A DNA stretch of 64,000 nucleotides, taken from positions 8,179,224 through 8,243,223 of the forward strand of contig NZ_JADWYI010000001.1 of NCBI RefSeq assembly GCF_016904885.1, given 5' to 3'. This stretch comes from Archangium primigenium (lineage in GTDB: Bacteria > Myxococcota > Myxococcia > Myxococcales > Myxococcaceae). Positions 51,393 to 63,525 of this stretch are shown here, piece by piece (position 1 is the stretch's first letter; each line of letters opens with the position of its first letter). The notes under the pieces were generated by a model. That model was not told the DNA's origin. It did no database searches and saw only the letters and a list, made by a program, of their open reading frames with translations. The position numbers and the translations under genes were made by a program.

Positions 51393-52061
51393 ATGGAGTC
51401 GAAGCGGCAGCGGGCGGTGGAGGTGGTGGAGCGGCTGGAGCGCTCCATGCCGGACGTGCGCATCGAGTTGGATTATCGCACGCCGCTGGAGTTGCTGGTG
51501 GCCGTCATCCTGTCCGCCCAGTGCACGGACAAGCGGGTGAACCTCGTCACCCCCGCCCTCTTCGCGCGCTTCCCGGACGCGGCCGCCTACGCCCGCGCGA
51601 GCGTGGAGGAGGTGGAGCCCTTCATCCAGTCTTGTGGCCTGTACCGCGCCAAGGCGAAGAACATCGTGGCGGCGGCGCGCGCCCTGCTGGCCGAGCATGG
51701 CGGCGAGGTGCCCCACGCGCGCGCCGCGCTGGCGACACTGCCGGGCGTGGGCAACAAGACCGCGGGCGTGGTGTGCATGCACCTGGGCGGCGACGAGGCC
51801 TTCCCCGTGGACACCCACGTCAAACGCCTGGCCTTCCGGCTGGGCTTCACCCGGCACACGGCGCCGGACAAGGTGGAGGAGGACCTGTGCCGCCTCTTGC
51901 CCTCGCCCCGGTGGATGAAGGGGCATCAACTGCTCGTGTGGCATGGGCGGCGCACGTGCTTCGCGCGCTCGCCCGCGTGCGAGCGCTGCACCGTGGCGGA
52001 GCTGTGCCCGAAGAAGGGCGTGAAGCTCAAGCCGTCGGACGCGACTCGCGAGACGTCTTGA
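51393..52061 (+). CDS. nth: Endonuclease III
   Basis: A 222-residue DNA glycosylase/AP lyase for oxidised pyrimidines. HhH motif LPGVGNKTAGVV with catalytic Lys122, and catalytic Asp140 in FPVDTHVKR. The [4Fe-4S] cluster C-x6-C-x2-C-x5-C reads Cys189, Cys196, Cys199, Cys205. ATG 51393 is preferred; GTG 51378 is an alternative. Its last 35 bases overlap the convergent def gene, the tail PSDATRETS being unimportant for the fold. Confidence 0.95.
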   Translation: MESKRQRAVEVVERLERSMPDVRIELDYRTPLELLVAVILSAQCTDKRVNLVTPALFARFPDAAAYARASVEEVEPFIQSCGLYRAKAKNIVAAARALLAEHGGEVPHARAALATLPGVGNKTAGVVCMHLGGDEAFPVDTHVKRLAFRLGFTRHTAPDKVEEDLCRLLPSPRWMKGHQLLVWHGRRTCFARSPACERCTVAELCPKKGVKLKPSDATRETS

Positions 52062-52548
52062 CGCGCTTCATCCGCTTGCGGATGAGCTCGCGCTTGAGCG
52101 ACGACACGTGGTCCACGTAGACGATGCCGTCGAGGTGATCCACCTCGTGCTGCACGGCGATCGCCAGGAGGTCGTCACACACGAGCGTCTGCTCCTGCCC
52201 CTCGGCATCCAGGTAGCGCACCGCCACCTTCGCCGCGCGCTCCACGTCCTCGCCCTCGCCGGGAATGGACAGGCAGCCCTCGTTGAAGACCACCTTGCCC
52301 TCCAGGGAGATGATCTCCGGGTTGATCATCGCCAGCGGCTGGATCTCCGGCTGGCGCGAGCGGCAGTCCAGGACGATCACCCGCTGCAGCACGCCCACCT
52401 GCGGCGCCGCGAGGCCCACGCCCTCGGCGGCGTACATCGTCTCGAACATGTCGCGCACGAGCGCCCGGGTGGCGTCGTCCACGCGGGCCACCGGCCGGGC
52501 CTTCTGCTTGAGGGTGGGATGGGGCCAGATGAGGATTTCGCGAACCAT
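52027..52548 (-). CDS. def: Peptide deformylase
   Basis: A 173-residue metalloenzyme that removes the formyl group from nascent N-termini. The three motifs GVGLAAPQ (43-50), EGCLS (90-94, metal Cys92) and QHEVDHLDG (133-141, His134, Glu135, His138) are intact. Start ATG at 52548. The last C-terminal residues (KRVKTSRESRPTA) overlap the nth tail. It lies downstream of the priA-coiled-coil gene pair after a 77-base gap and is likely the end of that transcript. Confidence 0.96.
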   Translation of the reverse strand: MVREILIWPHPTLKQKARPVARVDDATRALVRDMFETMYAAEGVGLAAPQVGVLQRVIVLDCRSRQPEIQPLAMINPEIISLEGKVVFNEGCLSIPGEGEDVERAAKVAVRYLDAEGQEQTLVCDDLLAIAVQHEVDHLDGIVYVDHVSSLKRELIRKRMKRVKTSRESRPTA

Positions 52549-52625: not shown

Positions 52626-55600
52626 TCAGTCGCGCAGGCTGCGCGCATACTCCTCACGCAGGCGATCATCCGCGAGCGCCCGGGCCGCCTCGCTCAGCGA
52701 GGTGGCGATCTGCTGGGCGCGGTGCTGGAGCACGGGGTCCGGGTGCCCGGCGAAGCGCAGGGGGTGGAACTCGGCGGACAGCAGCGCGTGGGCGCGCTTG
52801 ACGTCCTCGCCTCCGGCGGTGCGCGCCAGGCCCAGCACGGAGAAGTAGTCCGCGTCCTGGATCTCCTCGAACTTGGACTCCAGGCGGCGCACGTCCAGTT
52901 CGCCCGGCGTGTCGTCATCGGGCTCGGCGGCCTCGGCGGGCCGCACCTGGAGCAGGCCCAACGCCTGCCCGAGCCCGAGCGCCCGCAGGGCGGTGTCCTG
53001 GGGCAGCCCCGCGCCCAGCACGAGCTGCTCGATCGTCTGCTCGCCATCCACCTCGGCCAGCAGCCGCGACTCGCGCGAGGACAGGCCGAAGGTGTCGGGC
53101 TCGGGCTCGGCGCCCAGGCGGAAGACGCCCGCGCGCAGTCCCCCGGCGAGCGACAGGAAGGCCTCGGCCGAGACCCGATCGCGCAGCGCCTCGGTCAGCA
53201 GGTGCAACAGGGGCCGGGTGGACGCGGCGAGGGCCACCTCGTGCGGCGGCGCCTCCTCCACGAGCCGGTAGAGCGACGCGTCCTCGGCAAGCGCGTCCAG
53301 GGCCACCTGCTCGGTGTAGCGCTGCACGAGCGGGATGACCTCGGTCTCGCGCACGTAGCCCCGGCCCCGCATGGCCTCGAGGAGCGCGGTGTTGGAGGTG
53401 CCCCGCACGAGCCGCAACTCGTTCGCCTGGCGCGCGTCGATGAGCCCATCGGCCCGCGCGCGATCGACCAGCGACTCCTCCGGCGCCGAGGACATGGCGC
53501 CCACGAGCGCGCCGTCCCGCAGCCACAACACCCGCAGGGCCCGGGCGCCCTTGAGCTCGAAGCGGACCTGGATCCGCGCCTCGCGCAGCCGGATGACGAG
53601 CCGCGCCAGCCCCTCGCCATTCACGCTGCCCCCGCGGGGGATGTCCACCGCGGGGCCCTCGGGGGCCTGGAAGGTGATGAGCGCGGCACGGGCGCGGGCC
53701 GCCAGGTCCGCCGTCTCGGCCTCGGCGCGGGTGATGGCCGCCTCGGTCTCCGCGCGCACCCGGGCCACCGTCGCCTCCGCCTCGCGCAGCACCCGCGCCT
53801 CGGCCTCCTGGTGGGCGCGCTCGGCCTCGGCCCGCAGCGACTCCAGCCGGACCCGTGCCTCGCGCTCCTCGGTCAGGGCGCGCGCGAGCTGCTCGGCCTC
53901 CGCGCGGGCCGCGTCCAGGAGCCCGCCGCGCTCCGTCAGCGACTCCTCGAGTCGACCGAGCCGCGTCTCCACCTCGACCCGGGCGTGCTTCTCCTCGGCG
54001 GCACGGGACCTCGCCGCGGCGCGCTCCTTCTCCACGCGCTCGATCCGGGCCTCCGCCTCCAGCCGCAGCCGCTCGGTGTTCACCGCCCGCGTCTCCGCGT
54101 CCACCCGCGCCCGCTCCAGCTCCTCGGCTTGCGCCTCCACCGCGCCCAGCGCCTTCACCGCGTTCTCGACCTGCCCCTCCAGCTCTCCCCGCAGCCGCTC
54201 GGCCTTGGCCAGTCGCTTGTCCGCCTCGTCGGCGCGCTCCTGGAGCGCGGCGCGGGCCTGGGTCAGGCGCTCGTTGCGCGCCTCCTGTTCCACCCGCAGC
54301 CGCTCGGCGTTCATCGCCCGCGTCTCGGCATCCACCCGCGCTCGCTCCAGCTCCTCCGCCTGGTACTGGAGCTCCGCGTGCGCGCGCTGGAGGCGCTCGA
54401 CCTCGGCCGCCAGCGCCTGACGGGCCTGCTCGGCATGGGCCTCGTGCGCGGCCCGCGCGTGCGCGTGCTCACCGGCCTCGGCCACCGAGGCCTGGCGCAG
54501 CCGCTCGACCTCGGCTTCCCGCTCCGCCTGGGCCTGGCGCAGCCGCTCGACCTCGGCCTCCAGGGCCTGGCGCGTGCCTTCCGCTTCCACCTCCCGCTCC
54601 GCGTGCGTCTGGCGCAGCCGCTCGACCTCGGCCTCCCGCTCGGCGTGGGCCTGACGCAGCCGCTCGACCTCGGCCTCCAGGGCCTGGCGCGTGCCCTCCG
54701 CCTCCGCCTCCCGCTCCGCGTGGGCCTGACGCAGCCGCTCGACCTCGGCCTCCAGGGCCTGGCGCGTGCCCTCCGCCTCCGCCTCCCGCTCGGCGTGCGT
54801 CTGGCGCAGGTGCTCGAGCTCGGCCTCCAGGGCCCGGCGCGTGCCGTCCACCTCGGCATGCGTCTGGCGCAACCGATCGACCTCGGCCTCCAGGGACCGG
54901 TGCGCGCCCTCCGCCTCCGCGTCCCGCTCGGTGTGCGTCTGGATCAGCCGCGCGACGCGCTCCTCGGACACCTCGCGCAGCCGCTCCAGCTGGTTCTCCA
55001 GCCCGGCGTGCTCGCGCTGCATGCGCTCGACGCGCTCCTCCAGCTCGGCGCGCAAGAGGGCCTCCGCCTCCGCGCGCGCCTGCGCCTCGCCCCGGGCCTT
55101 CGCCAGGGACTCGGCCCGCGCATGCGCCTCGCCGCGCTCCTGCTCGGCCTTGCCCAGGCGCGTCTCCGAGCGCTGCCGGGCCTTCTCCGCCGCCTCCGCG
55201 CTCAGCTCCAGGCGGGCCCGGGCCCGCGCCTCCGTCTCGGCCTGGGCCTCGGCCCCGGCGCGCGCCTTGTCCGCCGCCTGCGCGCGGGCCTCCGCGTCCG
55301 CGCGCGCCTTCATCTCCAGTTGCACCCGCGCGTCCGCGGTGGAGCGCGCCCGCGCATCCACGTCCGTCGCGCGGCGCTCGGCCTGGGCGCGCGCGTCCGC
55401 CTCGCTCCGCGCCCGCGCTTCCGCCTCGCTCCTCGCCCGCGTCTCGCGCTCCACCTGCTCCTGGAGCGCGCGGCTCCGCGCCTCCTCCTCGCCGCGCGCG
55501 CGTGCCTGCTCCTCGGCCACCGCGGAGAGTCGCTCGCGCAGACCCTCCACCTCGCGCTGGGCCCGGTCCCACTCGGTCCGGAGCGACACGGCGTGGGCCT

Positions 55601-57119
55601 CGTGGGCCTCCTCGCGCGTGCGCAGCTCGGCGCGCAGCCGCTCCGTGCCCGCCGCGAGGGCCTCGCGCGCCTCGTCCCGCTCGGACTGCAGCTGCGCGAG
55701 CCGCCGCTCGGCGCGCATGAGGCGCACCTCCATGAGCGCGAGCGCGTCCTCCGCGTCGAGCGCCTCCACCGCCGGCGCCGGCGCCTCCGGGGTGTCGCGC
55801 AGCGGGAACTTGTCCGTCCGGGGAGACAGCTCCCCTTCCGGCGTGGGATCGACATCGCGCGGCGGGAGCGCGGGCGTGCCCAGGGCGGGCGTGCCCGGAG
55901 AGGACACCTCGTCATCGAACCAGGTGGCGCCCACGTCCTCCGCGCGCGGGGCCTCGGCCTCCGAGGGCAGAGGCGCGTCGTCGGGGACGGGCTCCAGCTC
56001 CGAGCCATCGCCCTCCAGGGCGCCCGGAGCGGTGGCCGCGGCCGCGGCGGCCTCCAGGAGGGACAGGGACGGCGTGGGCCGCGCGGGCGTCAGCTCCACG
56101 TCGAAGAAGCCCTCGTCCCCGAGCTGGGGGCCGGCCCTGCGCGGGGGCGCCATGGACTCGGCGGGCTCGGCCGCCGCGTCGATCTCCCACTGCGCCAGGC
56201 GCTCGGCCTCCGCGCGCGCCTCCGCCTCGATGTCCACGGCCTTCACCGGGGGCAGCGAGGGCAGCGGCTTGACGGGCTCGGCGACGGGCTGGGGGCTCTC
56301 CACGGGCCCCATCTCCACCCGACTCACGGCGGTGATGGTGGGGATGGCACCATGGGCGGACGCGCGGGAGCGCGCCCCGCCCGCGGGCCCGGCGGCCTCG
56401 GCGTCGGACAGGGGCTCGGGGGCGATGCGGCCCGAGCCCGCCACCGCCTGCTCCGTCTGGCCGAAGAGGGACTCGGCCTCCGCGTCCGCCTCGGCCTCGG
56501 CGAGGGCGGCGGCCAGGGGCGACAGCGCCCGCTCGCGCTCCGGCAGGAAGGCGTCGGGCAGGGGCGGCAGCGCGTCGGACGTCGAGGCGGGCGCGGGGGG
56601 CTCGGCGTCGAGCGCGAACGGGGACACCGGCTCGTTGAAGAGCGCCTGCTCGAGGCCGAGGTTGCGCGAGGGGGCGGCGCCCCGGGGTTGCAGTCCCGGC
56701 GGGCTCGCGAGCAGGGGCGTGGGCGAGACGGGCGCCTCCACCTCGTCCTTCACCACGAACCAGGACTCGGGCCCCGGCGGCGCGGCGATGAGCGACGTCA
56801 CCTGGTTCATGAAGCCCGCCCCGTCCAGGGGCAGGGGGGACACCGGGGCGGCGCTGCCCTCGATGCCGTCGCCGAGCAGCAGCACCCGCGCCAGTCGCAT
56901 GTCCGGATGCAGCCCCAGCTCCTCCAGCACCAGGTGGCCGCGTCCGCTCTCCACGCCGGGCGCCAGGACGATGAGCACGGGCAGGTGGTGCCCGAAGCCG
57001 ATGAGCGCATCCGCCACGGAGGTGGCGAGGATGACCTCATAGCCCTCGCGCGCGAGCAGTCGCCGCACGGAGGCGATGATGGCGATGTCGTCGTGGACGA
57101 GGAGGACGGATTCAGCCAT
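52626..57119 (-). CDS. Giant receiver-like/coiled-coil/PATAN-like/degenerate J-domain protein
   Basis: A 1497-residue cytoplasmic protein, ATG at 57119, 27 bases after the priA stop. Residues 1-120 look like a receiver domain ([21 protein letters not shown], then [11 protein letters not shown]) in which the phospho-acceptor region reads VLAPG, without a convincing Asp. A Pro/Ala/Glu-rich linker follows to about 455. Residues about 460-1145 are coiled coil with a 25-residue repeat. About 1147-1400 resembles PATAN/DUF4388 ([20 protein letters not shown]). Residues 1420-1497 look like a J-domain ([20 protein letters not shown]) with HPL in place of HPD. AglZ/FrzS-type motility scaffolds share receiver plus coiled coil. 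Function unknown. Confidence 0.75.
54492..54900 (-). repeat. 75-bp (25-residue) tandem repeat in the coiled coil
   Basis: Units such as [20 protein letters not shown] repeat with a period of about 25 residues, near-identical in the 54540-54840 part and diverging outward. 25 residues is seven helical turns at 3.57, so it preserves coiled-coil register with 7+7+11 spacing. Confidence 0.75.
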
Positions 57120-57146
57120 GGCAGCCACAGGAGGGGGGCGCGCAGT

Positions 57147-59390
57147 CTACAGCATGGCCGCGGGATCCACGTCGATCGTGACGCGCACGGCGGAGGGAAT
57201 GTCGACCAGTTTCGCTTCCAGGCGGGCGAGCAGTGGGGCGAGCGCCGCGTGCGTGGGGCCCTTGAGCAACATCTGCCAGCGCGTCTTGCCGCGGATGCGG
57301 GCGATGGGGGCCACGGCGGGCCCGAGCAGGCGAACCCCCCAGGACGAGGGCGGCATGTGACGGCCCAGGTAGTCGCCGAGGAAGCGCGCCACGCTGGCGG
57401 TCTGCTCGGGGCTCTCGCCCTCCAGGCGCACCGAGGCCATGCGCGTGTAGGGCGGCCAGGACAGGGCGCGGCGCCGCGCGAGCTCCCCCTCGGCGAAGCC
57501 GTCGAAGTCGTGCACCAGCATGCGCCGCACGGGCTCGGCGTCCGGGTTGTACGTCTGCACGAGCACGCGCCCGGGATCCTTGCCCCGCCCGGCGCGGCCG
57601 GCCACCTGGGTGAGCAGGTGGAACGTCCGCTCGGCGGCGCGGAAGTCCGGGATCGCGAGCGACGTGTCCGCCATCACCACGCACACGAGCGTCACGCCGG
57701 GGAAGTCATGCCCCTTGGCCACCATCTGCGTGCCCACCAGCACGTCGATCTCCCGGCGCGCGAAGGAGGCGAGCAGCTCCGTGAGCCGCTCGGCGCTCGT
57801 GGCCGAGTCCCGGTCCAGGCGCGCCACGCGGGCCTGGGGCACGCGCTCGGCCACCTCCGCCTCCACGCGCTCGGTGCCCACGCCCATCTTGAGCAGGGGC
57901 CCGGTGCACTCGCGGCAGTGCTCGGGCACCGGGTGGGCCTCGCCGCAGTAGTGGCACACCGCGCGGTTCTGCGAGCGGTGGTAGGTGAGGCACACGTCGC
58001 AGTCGCCGCACTTCACCGACGCGCCGCACACCTCGCACAGGAGGAAGGTGCTGTGGCCGCGCCGGTTGAGGAAGAGGATGACCTGCTGGCCCCGGCCGAT
58101 CGTCTCCGCCATGGCGTCCAAGAGGGGCGCGGACAGGATGGGCGCCTCCTGCATCACCAGCGGATCCTTCGGGCGCTCCTGGCGCAGGTCCACGCACTGC
58201 AAGGTGGGCATGGGCCGGTCATCCACGCGCCGCGTGAGCTCCAGCTTGCGGTAGCGGCCCTTGCGCGTGTTCTCCAGCGTCTCCAGCGACGGCGTGGCCG
58301 AGCCGAGCACCACCACCGCCCCGGCCTGCTTGCCGCGCACCACGGCCAGGTCGCGCGCCTGGTAGCGCAGCTTGTCCTCCTGCTTGAAGGACGGATCGTG
58401 CTCCTCGTCCACGACGATGAGGCCCAGGTCCGCCACCGGGGCGAACACCGCCGAGCGCACGCCCACCGCGATGCGCACCGTGCCCTTGCGCAGGGCCTGC
58501 CAGTGAAAGAGCCGCTCGCGATCCTTGAGCGCCGAGTGCAGCACGGCCACGTCCCCGCCGAAGCGGCTGCGAAAGCGCCCCACGAGCTGCGGGGTGAGCG
58601 CGATCTCCGGCACCAGCACCAGGCTGCCCCGGCCCCGCTCGAGCGCGCGCTCCACGGCCCGCAGGTACACCTCCGTCTTGCCGCTGCCGGTGACGCCGTG
58701 CAGGAGGAAGGGCTGGAAGCCCGGCGTGTCCACCGCCCCATGCAGCACGTCCACCGCCGCGGCCTGCTCGGGGGTGAGCCGCTCGGGCCGGTTCTGCCCC
58801 AGGCCCTCGCGCACCCCGGGCGCGAGCACCACCTGGTCCAGCCGCACGAGGCCCCGCGCGGCCAGCTTCTTGAGCGTCTCGCGCGCTCCGGGAATGGCGT
58901 GCGCCACCTCCTCCAGCGGCGCCCGGCCCCCCACCGCGAGGAGGTACGCCAGGGCGGCGGACTGGGCCGGGGCGCGGCGCAGCAGGTCGGGCGTCTCGGT
59001 GACGAGCGCCACGGCGAACTCCTGGATGTCGGGCCGGGCCTCCTTCTCGTCCTGGGCGGTGGACAGGCCCGGCGGCAGCGCGCCCCGGATGACCTCCCCG
59101 AGCGGGTAGCGGTAGTGCTCGGCGGCGAAGCGCAGCAGCGCGATGAGGTCCGGCGGCAGGGACGGCGAGTCCTCGAGCACCTTGAGGATGGGCTTGAGCT
59201 TGACGCTCGCGCCCTCGGCGGGAGGCACCGCCGGCCCGAGGAAGAAGCCCAGCGTCATGCTGCGGCCAAAGGGCACGAGGATGCGCTGGCCCGGCGAGAG
59301 CCGCCCGGTCAGCGCCTCGGGGACGACATAGGTGAACTCGCCCCGGACGGGACGGCCGACGGCGACGGAGGCGAGGGCGGAGGCATTCAC
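57147..59390 (-). CDS. priA: Primosomal protein N' (PriA helicase)
   Basis: A 747-residue 3'-5' helicase restarting collapsed replication forks. Walker A GVTGSGKTEVY and DEEH-box LIVVDEEHDPSFKQ are present, with GRGQQVILFLNRRGHS and a zinc-binding domain of eight cysteines (LCEVCGASVKCGDCDVC, CHYCGEAH, HCREC). The N-terminal DNA-binding domain opens VRGEFTYVVPEALTGRLSPG. The GTG at 59390 gives usual length; a TTG at 59444 lies 18 codons upstream. It is the first of a priA-coiled-coil-def transcript. Confidence 0.94.
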   Translation of the reverse strand: MNASALASVAVGRPVRGEFTYVVPEALTGRLSPGQRILVPFGRSMTLGFFLGPAVPPAEGASVKLKPILKVLEDSPSLPPDLIALLRFAAEHYRYPLGEVIRGALPPGLSTAQDEKEARPDIQEFAVALVTETPDLLRRAPAQSAALAYLLAVGGRAPLEEVAHAIPGARETLKKLAARGLVRLDQVVLAPGVREGLGQNRPERLTPEQAAAVDVLHGAVDTPGFQPFLLHGVTGSGKTEVYLRAVERALERGRGSLVLVPEIALTPQLVGRFRSRFGGDVAVLHSALKDRERLFHWQALRKGTVRIAVGVRSAVFAPVADLGLIVVDEEHDPSFKQEDKLRYQARDLAVVRGKQAGAVVVLGSATPSLETLENTRKGRYRKLELTRRVDDRPMPTLQCVDLRQERPKDPLVMQEAPILSAPLLDAMAETIGRGQQVILFLNRRGHSTFLLCEVCGASVKCGDCDVCLTYHRSQNRAVCHYCGEAHPVPEHCRECTGPLLKMGVGTERVEAEVAERVPQARVARLDRDSATSAERLTELLASFARREIDVLVGTQMVAKGHDFPGVTLVCVVMADTSLAIPDFRAAERTFHLLTQVAGRAGRGKDPGRVLVQTYNPDAEPVRRMLVHDFDGFAEGELARRRALSWPPYTRMASVRLEGESPEQTASVARFLGDYLGRHMPPSSWGVRLLGPAVAPIARIRGKTRWQMLLKGPTHAALAPLLARLEAKLVDIPSAVRVTIDVDPAAML

Positions 59391-59506
59391 GGCGGCGAGC
59401 GGCCACTCTAGCGGCGGCTCCTGACACCGGTAGTTTCCAGCCAACCGAGCGCCCCGTTCACGCGGGCGCCCTCACCCCGCGTGCGGACGGCGCGGCCCCG
59501 AGTCCG

Positions 59507-61820: not shown

Positions 61821-62600
61821 CTAGAACAGCGAGTCCGCGGGCTTCGAGCGCGTGTCCCCGGTGAGCGCCGTGAAGCGCAGGAGCCGCTCGCCGCCGCGCC
61901 AGACCTCCACGGTGCGCGGCATCATCTCGCCCGTGGCCGAGGACGTGTAGTCCTGCAGGCGCACGTCCCACTCGGGGCCCTTGCCCTCCTTGTGCTTGAG
62001 GCGCGCGGGGCGGAAGGTGTCCTTGTAGATCCAGAACTGCGGCTGGCCCTCGGCGGGCCCGCCCAGCACGTACACCACCTCGCCGCCGAAGCGCGCGAGC
62101 GACGTGGTGCGCGGCTCGATGCCCAGGGACGACAGGTGCGCCTCCAGCTCGTCCCGGCTGCGCGCGGTGAGCAGGGCGCACAGCTCGCGCACCGCCTCGC
62201 TGAGCGCCGGAATCTCCGGGCCCTCCACGCGCTTGCGGCCCGCGGAGAACACCGAGGCCACGGCCCCGCCCGCGCGCGCCTTCGCCTCGAAGCGGCAGCG
62301 GCCCGGCGGGCGGATGTACACCGTGCCGTCCACCTCCAGGTCCGGCTTGTCGGTGGGCAGGCCCAGCGCCGCGCCCGCCTCGCGCACCCCCGGTCCATAG
62401 AAGCGCAGCGAGCCGTCCGCCTTGAGCGAGGCGAAGGTCTGCGCCTCGCGCGCGGCCACCATGCGGCGCATGATGGAGCCGCCGGGCAGCACGTAGGCCC
62501 CGGCGCTCAGGGCCACCAGCGCGCCGAGGAGCAAGGCCGGTCGCCACGGGGCGCGGGCACGTCGGCGGAGGGGCACGGTCGTCGGAGGGGGGGTGGACAT
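61821..62600 (-). CDS. Membrane-anchored protein resembling LolA/LolB-type lipoprotein sorting
   Basis: A 259-residue protein, start ATG at 62600, with an N-terminal Pro/Arg-rich segment and one anchor helix (about 21-38, ALLLGALVALSAGAYVL). The rest is beta-rich: SLRFYGPGVREAGAALGLPT, YIRPPGRCRFEAKARAG, FWIYKDTFRPARLKHKEG and a terminal GGERLLRFTALTGDTRS, reminiscent of outer-membrane lipoprotein-sorting (LolA-like) folds. It is divergent from the PorV-like gene. Function uncertain. Confidence 0.6.
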   Translation of the reverse strand: MSTPPPTTVPLRRRARAPWRPALLLGALVALSAGAYVLPGGSIMRRMVAAREAQTFASLKADGSLRFYGPGVREAGAALGLPTDKPDLEVDGTVYIRPPGRCRFEAKARAGGAVASVFSAGRKRVEGPEIPALSEAVRELCALLTARSRDELEAHLSSLGIEPRTTSLARFGGEVVYVLGGPAEGQPQFWIYKDTFRPARLKHKEGKGPEWDVRLQDYTSSATGEMMPRTVEVWRGGERLLRFTALTGDTRSKPADSLF

Positions 62601-62658
62601 AGGGGCGGGGAATCTAGTGATGGCCTCCCCCTCCATCAAGGCAGTTAGGATGCCCGGC

Positions 62659-63525
62659 ATGTCGCATCGCGCCACGCTGCTGCTCGCCCTCTGTCTCTCT
62701 TCTTCCGCGCTCGCCCAGGAGGCGGACGCACTCCAGGCCCCCGTCGCGGAGGACTTGCGCGATCTGTCGAGCGCGCGGGCCTACGGCATGGGCGGCGCCT
62801 GGCGCGCGCTGGGCTCGGACGCGGCCACGGGCACGGGCAACCCCGCGAGCGTCGCCGCCGTGCGCGGCTACCGCGTGGAGGCGACGGGCGGCTGGGACTG
62901 GGTGGGCAAGGACGCCGCGGCCACGGTGGCCGTCGCCGACTCCGCCACCAGCCCCCTGGGCGCGGGCATCTCCTACCAGCTCATCACCCTGGGCAAGGGC
63001 GCGGCGCGCACCACCGCGCACCTCAACACGCTGGCGCTCGCGGCCCCCCTGAGCGAGAACCTGATGATCGGCGTCTCCGGCCGCTACCTCGTCATGCGCG
63101 GCGGACGGCAGGCCAACGCCCTCACGATGGACGCGGGCGTGCTCCTGCGCCCCACCCCGCTGCTCGCCCTGGGCGTGTCCGCCCACAACCTCATCGACAC
63201 GAAGCACGCGGAGCTCACCCGCTACTACTCGGCCCATGCCGGGGTGCTCGTGGGGCAGCTCACGATCGCCGCCGACGTGCGCGGGGACTTCGCCACGGAC
63301 GCGCGCCGCACGCTCACCTACAGCGGCGGCCTGGAGTACGTGCTCGGCCAGAACATCCCCGTGCGCGTGGGCTACACCTGGGACGGCTTCACCCGCACGT
63401 CCCAGGCGGGCGTGGGCATTGGCGTGGTGACGTCCGGGGGCGGCATCGACCTGGGCTACCACCACGACTTCGGCGGCGAGGGAGGCCGGCTGCTCTCCCT
63501 CACCTTCAAGGTCCAGGTGCGCTAG
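62659..63525 (+). CDS. PorV/PorQ-like outer-membrane protein
   Basis: A 288-residue protein. Signal peptide HRATLLLALCLSSSALAQ, then the PorV-type opening LSSARAYGMGGAWRALGSDAATGTGNPAS and repeated beta strands (LGVSAHNLIDTKHAELTRYY), ending with TFKVQVR as a beta-barrel. ATG 62659 with TTAGGA eight bases upstream is chosen; ATG 62650 is an alternative. It is divergent from the LolA-like gene and overlaps the next by four bases. Members act in transport or in secretion systems. Confidence 0.75.
   Translation: MSHRATLLLALCLSSSALAQEADALQAPVAEDLRDLSSARAYGMGGAWRALGSDAATGTGNPASVAAVRGYRVEATGGWDWVGKDAAATVAVADSATSPLGAGISYQLITLGKGAARTTAHLNTLALAAPLSENLMIGVSGRYLVMRGGRQANALTMDAGVLLRPTPLLALGVSAHNLIDTKHAELTRYYSAHAGVLVGQLTIAADVRGDFATDARRTLTYSGGLEYVLGQNIPVRVGYTWDGFTRTSQAGVGIGVVTSGGGIDLGYHHDFGGEGGRLLSLTFKVQVR

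Follow-up and report, generated by a model that had tools for sequence, protein, structure and literature searches.

A pseudo-receiver, coiled-coil, PATAN and J-like protein encoded behind priA in Myxococcota: a candidate adaptor scaffold

In Myxococcus xanthus, the gliding protein AglZ combines a pseudo-receiver with a long coil and is not known to carry PATAN and J domains at its end. J folds also occur without the HPD motif, as in the small mitochondrial protein Pam16/Tim16, which is not known to contain a receiver or PATAN domain, serves as a regulator rather than an activator and pairs with Pam18. FrzS of M. xanthus, likewise a pseudo-receiver followed by a coiled coil, is a polar regulator of type IV pili, and its receiver is described as working without phosphorylation and binding SgmX (PMC12632262). 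PilB, the pilus motor, is a binding target of PATAN domains in cyanobacteria (PMC10519157), some PATAN domains are encoded near mglA/mglB genes (PMC4316618), and MXAN_3211 and MXAN_4965 appear as PATAN proteins in one paper.

The gene described here lies at 52626..57119 on the minus strand of the window, the 64,000-nucleotide stretch of Archangium primigenium DNA that was analysed, with its ATG at 57119, its stop at 52626 and a product of 1,497 residues that is conserved across the phylum; all features below, neighbours included, are on this strand. The preliminary description had the coordinates and length exactly right and gave no strand. A GTG start at 57128, upstream of the ATG, is not favoured, as most of 13 aligned orthologs start at the ATG. 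From the N- to the C-terminus, the protein consists of a receiver-like domain, a low-complexity linker, a proline-free heptad-like coil, a PATAN/DUF4388 domain and a J-like domain. Taken alone, it scores under the Pfam gathering cut-offs (DnaJ 22.5 against 27.8 bits, DUF4388 18 against 25, Response_reg 13.5 against 30.2), and the domain counts among relatives given below are Pfam matches at E<=0.01. The receiver and J-domain folds originally proposed are both backed by profile searches, the check named beforehand, and by AlphaFold models. No publication could be linked to the gene in a literature search that covered few subscription journals.

The pseudo-receiver (56775..57119, residues 1-115), assigned from the Response_reg profile, an AF2 model and solved receivers matched by profile and fold, carries Ala53 at the acceptor Asp position, Gly83 at the Thr position and Leu96 at the Lys position. 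As in FrzS, Ala replaces the acceptor Asp and Gly replaces Thr87, and a long coil follows; whereas FrzS retains the Lys and has Ser10 as part of the acidic pair, the protein described here retains the Asp pair and is without the Lys (FrzS residues from PMC1974792). The suggested likeness to FrzS in the first two parts thus holds, whereas a PATAN or J domain goes unmentioned for FrzS in the portions of literature consulted. The protein is nevertheless not the FrzS ortholog, as a separate FrzS-like gene, the likely FrzS of the same genome, lies at G000:C1:6700994; it is 88% identical to the FrzS receiver, and our protein matches this locus at 26% identity over 84 residues. A frame of 1,289 residues with a FrzS-like receiver (28%) is found elsewhere in the genome. 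The likeness to AglZ is one of layout in the first two parts, and that to Pam16/Tim16 is a J fold without HPD, to which our protein adds a receiver and a PATAN domain. PATAN is also joined to a receiver in the cyanobacterial response regulators PixG, PilG and TaxP2, in which, however, PATAN is N-terminal, so that the order is reversed, and for which the available part of the source mentions neither coil nor J domain (PMC10519157).

The combination of all four parts had been called unfamiliar, but the pairing of PATAN with J is not unique: the same genome encodes a receiver-PATAN-J-TPR protein and a PATAN-J-TPR protein, both with intact HPD. Within the order, L084, L085, L154 and L155 all carry PATAN followed by J, as our protein does, and L084, L154 and L155 also have a receiver on the N-terminal side (L154 and L155 judged by eye). 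Unlike it, all four have HPD, show no long coil and lie away from priA, and L084 and L085 carry TPR after the J domain. The protein described here stands apart by its long coil, by having lost HPD, by having no TPR and by its constant position behind priA.

Between the receiver and the C-terminal domains lie an Ala/Pro/Glu-rich linker (55710..56774, residues about 116-470), delimited by composition, and a heptad-like Ala/Glu/Arg-rich coil (53670..55709, residues about 471-1150), delimited by composition and periodicity. The 680 coil residues, 471-1150, include 0 Pro and 20 Gly, and their hydrophobic period of 3.5 (z 6.4 against 200 shuffles) agrees with the long coiled coil first read there; a period of 2 is equally strong (z 7.1), so part of the coil signal is low-complexity A/E/R repetition. 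Coil length differs widely among orthologs, which measure from 288 to about 2,330 residues. The 288-residue form is receiver and J only, some orthologs are receiver-PATAN-J without the coil, and others are receiver-coil-J without PATAN; in all members read, the receiver and J-like ends stay, while coil and PATAN may each be missing.

Since its ends look like inactive signalling and chaperone parts on a variable rod, the protein is probably a connector between proteins, and we lean towards a soluble, two-ended adaptor scaffold in the style of FrzS and AglZ. The N-terminal receiver fold, without phosphoryl-accepting residues in the order, would dock one partner through its protein surface as in FrzS; the disordered linker and coiled rod of freely varying length would serve oligomerisation and spacing; and the C-terminal module of PATAN, winged-helix-like and J-like parts would grip a second partner, the J fold minus its Hsp70-activating residues acting as a binding module. 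The proposal that both ends are binding modules rather than enzymes or chaperone activators is supported in this lineage by the residue losses. What the analysis documents is the gene with its domains, residue losses, conservation and synteny, and the lack of single modules in some members. Adaptor action and oligomerisation through the coil are what we infer, and the partners and process are guessed: the setting would most likely be signalling or polarity in connection with MglA-type GTPases, and a role in polarity or motility is a tentative guess, clearly less probable than the scaffold itself.

The J-like domain (52632..52868, residues about 1418-1496), assigned by the DnaJ profile, fold matches and a motif census, invites another reading, in which it would bind either a genuine J protein or an Hsp70, for example SglK, in the manner of Pam16 and Pam18, and hold it at a site set by receiver and coil. 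DnaJ (PF00226) is matched in 40/41 relatives, a profile search against solved J domains gave a best E of 1.8e-11, VIA matched 6rzy_A (Z 9.9, rmsd 2.1, 70 aligned), and Foldseek reported a probability of 1.00, yet a best E of 9.9e-3. That the J fold is intact, with its invariant residues kept (Y282, F283, L286, G287, A300, D341, R345 and Y348 in the numbering of the A2/A3 alignment), speaks for Hsp70 regulation, as do the HPD-bearing PATAN-J-TPR cousins in the same genome, the requirement of SglK, a DnaK-type Hsp70, for social motility in M. xanthus (PMC8265645) and a cyanobacterial DnaK/DnaJ system that works with pili (PMC9239167). However, the motif EFHPLRF at residues 1450-1456 has HPL where HPD is expected, as had been noticed, and the HPD Asp is missing from every ortholog inspected: the motif lacks it in 67 of 68 loci and is unrecognised in the remaining one, and a reading by eye of 20 loci from other orders or classes found none with the Asp. 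The position of DnaJ Lys31 is Glu in 40/41 sequences, and no Hsp70 or J gene is present among the nine neighbouring frames of the window that were scanned. An active Hsp40 is ruled out by the absence of HPD, and the residue pattern suggests that the domain does not activate Hsp70; overall, we regard a role in Hsp70 regulation as unlikely, if worth keeping in view.

The surroundings of the gene raise the question of a tie to PriA. Upstream, priA (57147..59444; Pfam PriA_C and PriA_3primeBD) ends at a distance of 27 bp, and downstream, def, for peptide deformylase (52027..52548; Pfam Pep_deformylase), follows after 77 bp. The gene was matched in 139/195 Myxococcota genomes at E<=1e-30, one HPD-bearing paralog having been taken out by hand, and in 95/96 genomes of its own family; it is conserved in several classes of the phylum and is found in M. 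xanthus strain AM003 as well. In the ortholog tree, the branch uniting all orthologs against four cousins has a support of 0.37, and several inner branches are also weak. The adjacency to priA pointed out earlier recurs across orthologous loci: in four sets that overlap in part, priA is directly upstream in 13/13, 24/27, 4/4 and 11/12 testable loci, and def downstream in 17/19, 38/40, 2/5 and 9/19. The priA link thus outlasts the def link; by eye, the downstream genes of loci without def share nothing obvious. These counts, the survival of the link where def is gone and its presence in three genomes of 2.1-2.7 Mb favour a functional pairing with priA, through a role in replication restart or in tying the replisome to another structure. 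Such a role nonetheless has only a small chance of being correct, given that operon order can last without common function and that a Pfam scan of the protein at E<=1 found no DNA-binding or helicase-loading domain. Relatives also have priA without the gene. The preliminary description had treated absence of the gene from close relatives with the same priA-def neighbourhood as telling against its reading; such absence is not the pattern of the gene's own family, but it is found beyond it, where priA is followed directly by def in 14/16 testable gene-lacking genomes of the order. Whole sister families have priA and def adjoining without the gene, which is therefore dispensable there. The adaptor scaffold that we favour does not, as it stands, account for the priA link.

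The PATAN/DUF4388 domain (53178..53651, residues about 1157-1314), recognised by the DUF4388 profile and an AF2 model, is as previously described: DUF4388 is matched in 41/41 relatives, and the C-terminal part of the protein alone reaches 21 bits with a cut-off of 25. Between PATAN and J, the AF2 model has a helical segment (52938..53180, residues about 1314-1394) that may be winged-helix-like, a reading of helix order and of weak VIA matches (Z 7.1-8.4) to chains in structures of GATOR1/KICSTOR and SEA. These matches cover model residues 171-253 and barely include the PATAN part: 9o5d_C (Z 8.4, rmsd 3.6, 78 aligned), 7t3a_C (Z 7.5, rmsd 3.0, 75 aligned) and 7t3b_B (Z 7.1, rmsd 3.1, 72 aligned). 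With the C-terminal model, Foldseek found no hit reaching E<=0.001. In GATOR1, the longin/winged-helix unit of NPRL2/NPRL3 is the GTPase-activating part. It is conceivable, and in our judgement improbable, that the PATAN/winged-helix-like unit is a bacterial counterpart of that unit and the protein a receiver-gated, rod-spaced regulator of MglA-type GTPases, in which the J fold would be a docking module and co-expression with priA would tie polarity to replication.

The retained acidic pair of the receiver (Asp10 in 38/38 sequences of the order, Asp11 in 35/38) could point to a conventional response regulator, controlled by phosphorylation and using PATAN/J as its output. The fold is well supported: Response_reg (PF00072) is matched in 38/38 relatives, the AF2 model has a pLDDT of 87.5, and a profile search against solved structures gave a best receiver E of 1.7e-12, with FrzS at 1.9e-10. 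The top Foldseek match of the model is the FrzS receiver (E 3.9e-8, TM 0.81), other receivers being nearly equal; VIA-align matched DivK 1mav (Z 18.6, rmsd 1.9, 114 aligned), and FrzS is not among the best 50 receiver entries that it listed. Against phospho-regulation, the acceptor Asp is found in none of 38 sequences of the order (A30/Q4/S3/G1), the Thr column reads G34/S3/gap 1 and the Lys column L30/R6/S1/Q1. The claim that the receiver lacks the acceptor Asp therefore stands for the protein itself and its order and fails for some orthologs of other classes, which retain the Asp, two of them with the KP motif too. The phospho-switch may thus be ancestral to the receiver family, while the receiver is presumably not phosphorylated in this order, and we consider phospho-regulation here highly improbable. 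That the gene is a spurious frame in GC-rich DNA, as the open opposite strand across the whole region might suggest, is dismissed as next to impossible: an open opposite strand goes with high GC (codon-position GC 85/51/96% in the minus frame), whereas protein-level conservation (29-78% identity across 354 C-terminal residues of the ortholog alignment) sits in the minus frame and, with the conserved synteny, rules this out. The gene is real and inherited over much of the phylum Myxococcota.

With regard to partners of the adaptor scaffold, co-occurrence was examined in 89 genomes, 39 chosen within the order and all 50 outside it from the phylum survey, with the genome of the short variant (G021) counted as gene-bearing. 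MglA, searched at E 1e-20 in one search and 1e-60 in another, is present in 45/46 gene-bearing genomes (one a fragment) against 28/43 gene-lacking ones, and in all 16 gene-lacking genomes tested within the order. This nesting carries little weight, with genome size as a confounder, and it was set aside; co-occurrence thus decides neither for nor against a polarity or MglA role, which is plausible. PilB exceeds the cut-off in 40/46 gene-bearing and 30/43 gene-lacking genomes, and a partner confined to type IV pili was rejected, PilB being below cut-off in six gene-bearing genomes (G100, G132, G135, G142, G145 and G186). Little can be built on these absences: among the six assemblies, five are split into at least 230 contigs and three are less than 90% complete. 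PilB is present in two sisters of G135, and in G100 a PilB-like fragment lies close to the start of a contig.

A large protein at a fixed place behind priA, in several classes of Myxococcota and even in three genomes of 2.1-2.7 Mb, is a clean system in which to study how folds from signalling and from chaperones turn into plain docking parts. If the reading related to NPRL2/NPRL3 were true, it would point to a phylum-wide system of which we found no description in the literature. M. xanthus, which also carries the gene, is the species in which mutants of FrzS, SgmX, MglA and SglK have been investigated, and this makes the gene an accessible new candidate for a part in polarity, in motility or in regulation linked to replication.

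The target gene runs on the minus strand from position 57119 to 52626 of the window and encodes 1,497 residues; coordinates, length and the adjoining priA are as given in the preliminary description. priA lies upstream on the same strand and ends 27 bp ahead of the ATG, def starts on that strand 77 bp past the stop codon, and nth follows beyond def on the opposite strand. The gene is real, conserved and architecturally unusual. A 2,229-codon open frame on the plus strand (52722-59411), antisense to priA and the target, is probably an effect of GC composition. A minus-strand frame of 284 amino acids (AA) upstream of priA (61821-62675) gave no Pfam match; of 42 named loci, 14 carry a relative of it ahead of priA, 13 of them at 50-56% identity and the remaining one at 35%.

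The proposed receiver-like, PATAN/DUF4388-like and J-like parts were supported by Pfam searches of relatives, by profile searches and by AlphaFold models. Pfam matched DUF4388 in 41/41 and DnaJ in 40/41 C-terminal sequences of relatives, and Response_reg in 38/38 N-terminal ones; the target sequence alone falls under the cut-offs for all three domains, which may explain its unfamiliar look. A profile from the N-terminal alignment matched solved receivers at E 1.7e-12, and one from the C-terminal alignment matched J domains at E 1.8e-11. The receiver model has a pLDDT of 87.5, and the model of the last 354 residues one of 88.5. Foldseek ranked the FrzS receiver first for the receiver model (E 3.9e-8, TM 0.81) with other receivers nearly equal, and FrzS is not among the 50 receiver entries at Z 16.8-18.6 in the VIA-align matches listed, which argues for a generic receiver fold. 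For the C-terminal model, Foldseek returned J domains at probability 1.00, yet none with E < 0.001, and J-domain matches in VIA-align span Z 7 to 10.5. Residues 471-1150 contain no proline and show a heptad-like period (z 6.4), with a two-residue repeat equally strong.

Among 195 genomes of Myxococcota, 140 matched at E<=1e-30, and 139 were retained after manual removal of G034, whose match (L154), inspected by eye, carries TPR-like repeats and has both HPD and the acceptor Asp; the short version in genome G021 (288 AA) was missed at this threshold and would bring the count to 140. Most of the 139 carriers were called by E-value alone; of the 23 carriers beyond the order, 20 had their loci inspected. 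The gene is found in 95 of 96 Myxococcaceae, the sole absence being a 78% complete genome (G005), in 21/49 genomes elsewhere in the order and in 23/50 outside it. Carriers by name include M. xanthus AM003 and species of Archangium, Corallococcus, Pyxidicoccus and Hyalangium. In a tree of 69 modules the inner order mostly follows taxonomy, with several weak branches, and the branch uniting all orthologs against four cousins has a support of only 0.37. A contig titled Comamonas sp. KCTC 72670 (L061, BNCN01000002.1) carries this myxobacterial locus (priA 79%, target C-terminus 66%) and is probably mislabelled or contaminated. Genome G008 holds two diverged copies (L032 and L033), only one of which adjoins def in the sequence available; either a duplication or a bin of mixed origin may account for them. 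We found no paper tied to the target gene, although a mention under its DK1622 locus tag could have escaped.

Linkage was scored where at least 900 bases lie on the side in question. priA is upstream in 13/13 order relatives, 24/27 named contigs (the two sets partly overlap, some assemblies being in both), 4/4 of five odd cases and 11/12 loci from other orders and classes; the corresponding values for def downstream are 17/19, 38/40, 2/5 and 9/19. The exceptions for priA are L069, L072, L073 and L174, and at L069 a priA match begins about 6.2 kb ahead of the receiver. The link to priA outlasts that to def, notably in G133, G134 and G135 (2.3, 2.7 and 2.1 Mb; 88, 99 and 94% complete), where the entire layout is kept 5-20 bp behind priA and the search across the order gave no second match at E<=1e-10. 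At their loci (L152, L151 and L153, respectively), all of the same family, def is no longer downstream. It had been considered that close relatives might lack the gene beside the same priA-def pair. This does not describe the target's own family, but of 30 genomes viewed behind priA, 19 lack the gene, and in 14 of these no more than about 135 bp separate the end of priA from def (G022, G023, G028, G029, G032, G034, G037, G039, G049, G050, G052, G053, G054 and G062). Sixteen were testable, the sequence behind priA being too short in G026, G143 and G144; in G020 def begins 751 bp past priA, and in G024 no def was seen within 1.5 kb. As G062 and G063 belong to one genus but the gene is present in G063 alone, losses (or gains) have been recent in places.

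The supposedly unfamiliar domain combination is less singular than first described, since PATAN and J recur together in the same genome in L084:1634-3517 (receiver-PATAN-J-TPR, 627 AA, HPDS) and L085:682-3012 (PATAN-J-TPR, 776 AA, HPDT); with the J protein of L083 (406 AA, HPDR), these cousins make PATAN plus J a local theme. What sets the target family apart from L084 and L085 is the absence of HPD and TPR, the usual coil and the position behind priA. A literature search for receiver-PATAN-J-TPR or PATAN-J-TPR proteins returned no paper. Within the family, BLAST and inspection by eye revealed a receiver-PATAN-J protein without coil (G132, 538 AA), a receiver-coil-J protein without PATAN (G014, 852 AA) and, between priA and def, the receiver-J protein of G021 (L122:585-1448), in which Pfam at E<=0.01 detects the receiver alone and the J-like end was recognised by its similarity to the target (37.5% across 88 residues). 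Ortholog lengths reach about 2,330 AA. The receiver and J-like ends persist and the middle is free to vary, as expected for an adaptor that depends on its docking parts but not on a set spacer length; we favour the view that the target protein acts as such a two-ended adaptor.

Published work describes PATAN binding to PilB in cyanobacteria (PMC10519157), PATAN in some mgl neighbourhoods (PMC4316618) and binding of the FrzS receiver to SgmX (PMC12632262), and by analogy a role in polarity or motility would be a fair first guess. Co-occurrence counts do not decide the matter: MglA is found in 45/46 gene-bearing (one a fragment) versus 28/43 gene-lacking genomes, including all 16 gene-lacking ones tested within the order, and PilB above cut-off in 40/46 versus 30/43. 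The link to priA makes a replication-linked role a further candidate. Between PATAN and J, model residues 171-253 gave weak VIA-align matches to chains of GATOR1/KICSTOR and SEA entries, namely 9o5d_C (Z 8.4, rmsd 3.6, 78 aligned), 9o5a_C (8.2, 2.8, 76), 8adl_S (7.8, 3.3, 77) and 7t3a_C (7.5, 3.0, 75), where Z < 8 may reflect merely a common arrangement. These chains are NPRL2/NPRL3-type, and the modelled PATAN strand order (two strands, helix, three strands, helix) resembles that of longin/roadblock domains; on this weak lead the PATAN/winged-helix-like unit might, with low probability, be a counterpart of the longin/winged-helix unit of NPRL2/NPRL3 in GATOR1.

The degenerate J-like domain without HPD was confirmed. 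In the HPD-Asp column of 41 C-terminal modules, the six most frequent letters account for 40 modules and Asp is not one of them; the motif Asp is absent from 67 of 68 loci in a census, the search pattern not recognising the motif of the other, and inspection by eye of 20 loci in other orders and classes showed HPD in none. The column aligned with Lys31 of DnaJ holds Glu in 40 modules and Gln in one. As proposed, the receiver lacks the acceptor Asp in all 38 aligned sequences of the order (Ala 30, Gln 4, Ser 3, Gly 1); the Thr column is Gly in 34/38, the Lys column never holds Lys, and the acidic pair is kept (Asp10 38/38, Asp11 35/38). FrzS, which works independently of phosphorylation, carries Ala53 in the acceptor position and Gly88 in the Thr position (PMC1974792). 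The proposal does not extend to all orthologs, however, as by eye the acceptor Asp is present in L169, L177 and L178 (G146, G149 and G153, from another class), the latter two also with a KP motif, and apparently in L173, L174 and L180; some of the 20 loci begin within the coil and show no receiver. Among the sampled members, HPD is therefore lost across the whole family but the acceptor in only part of it, and the orthologs at L169, L177 and L178 could allow the switch from receiver to pseudo-receiver to be dated inside the family.
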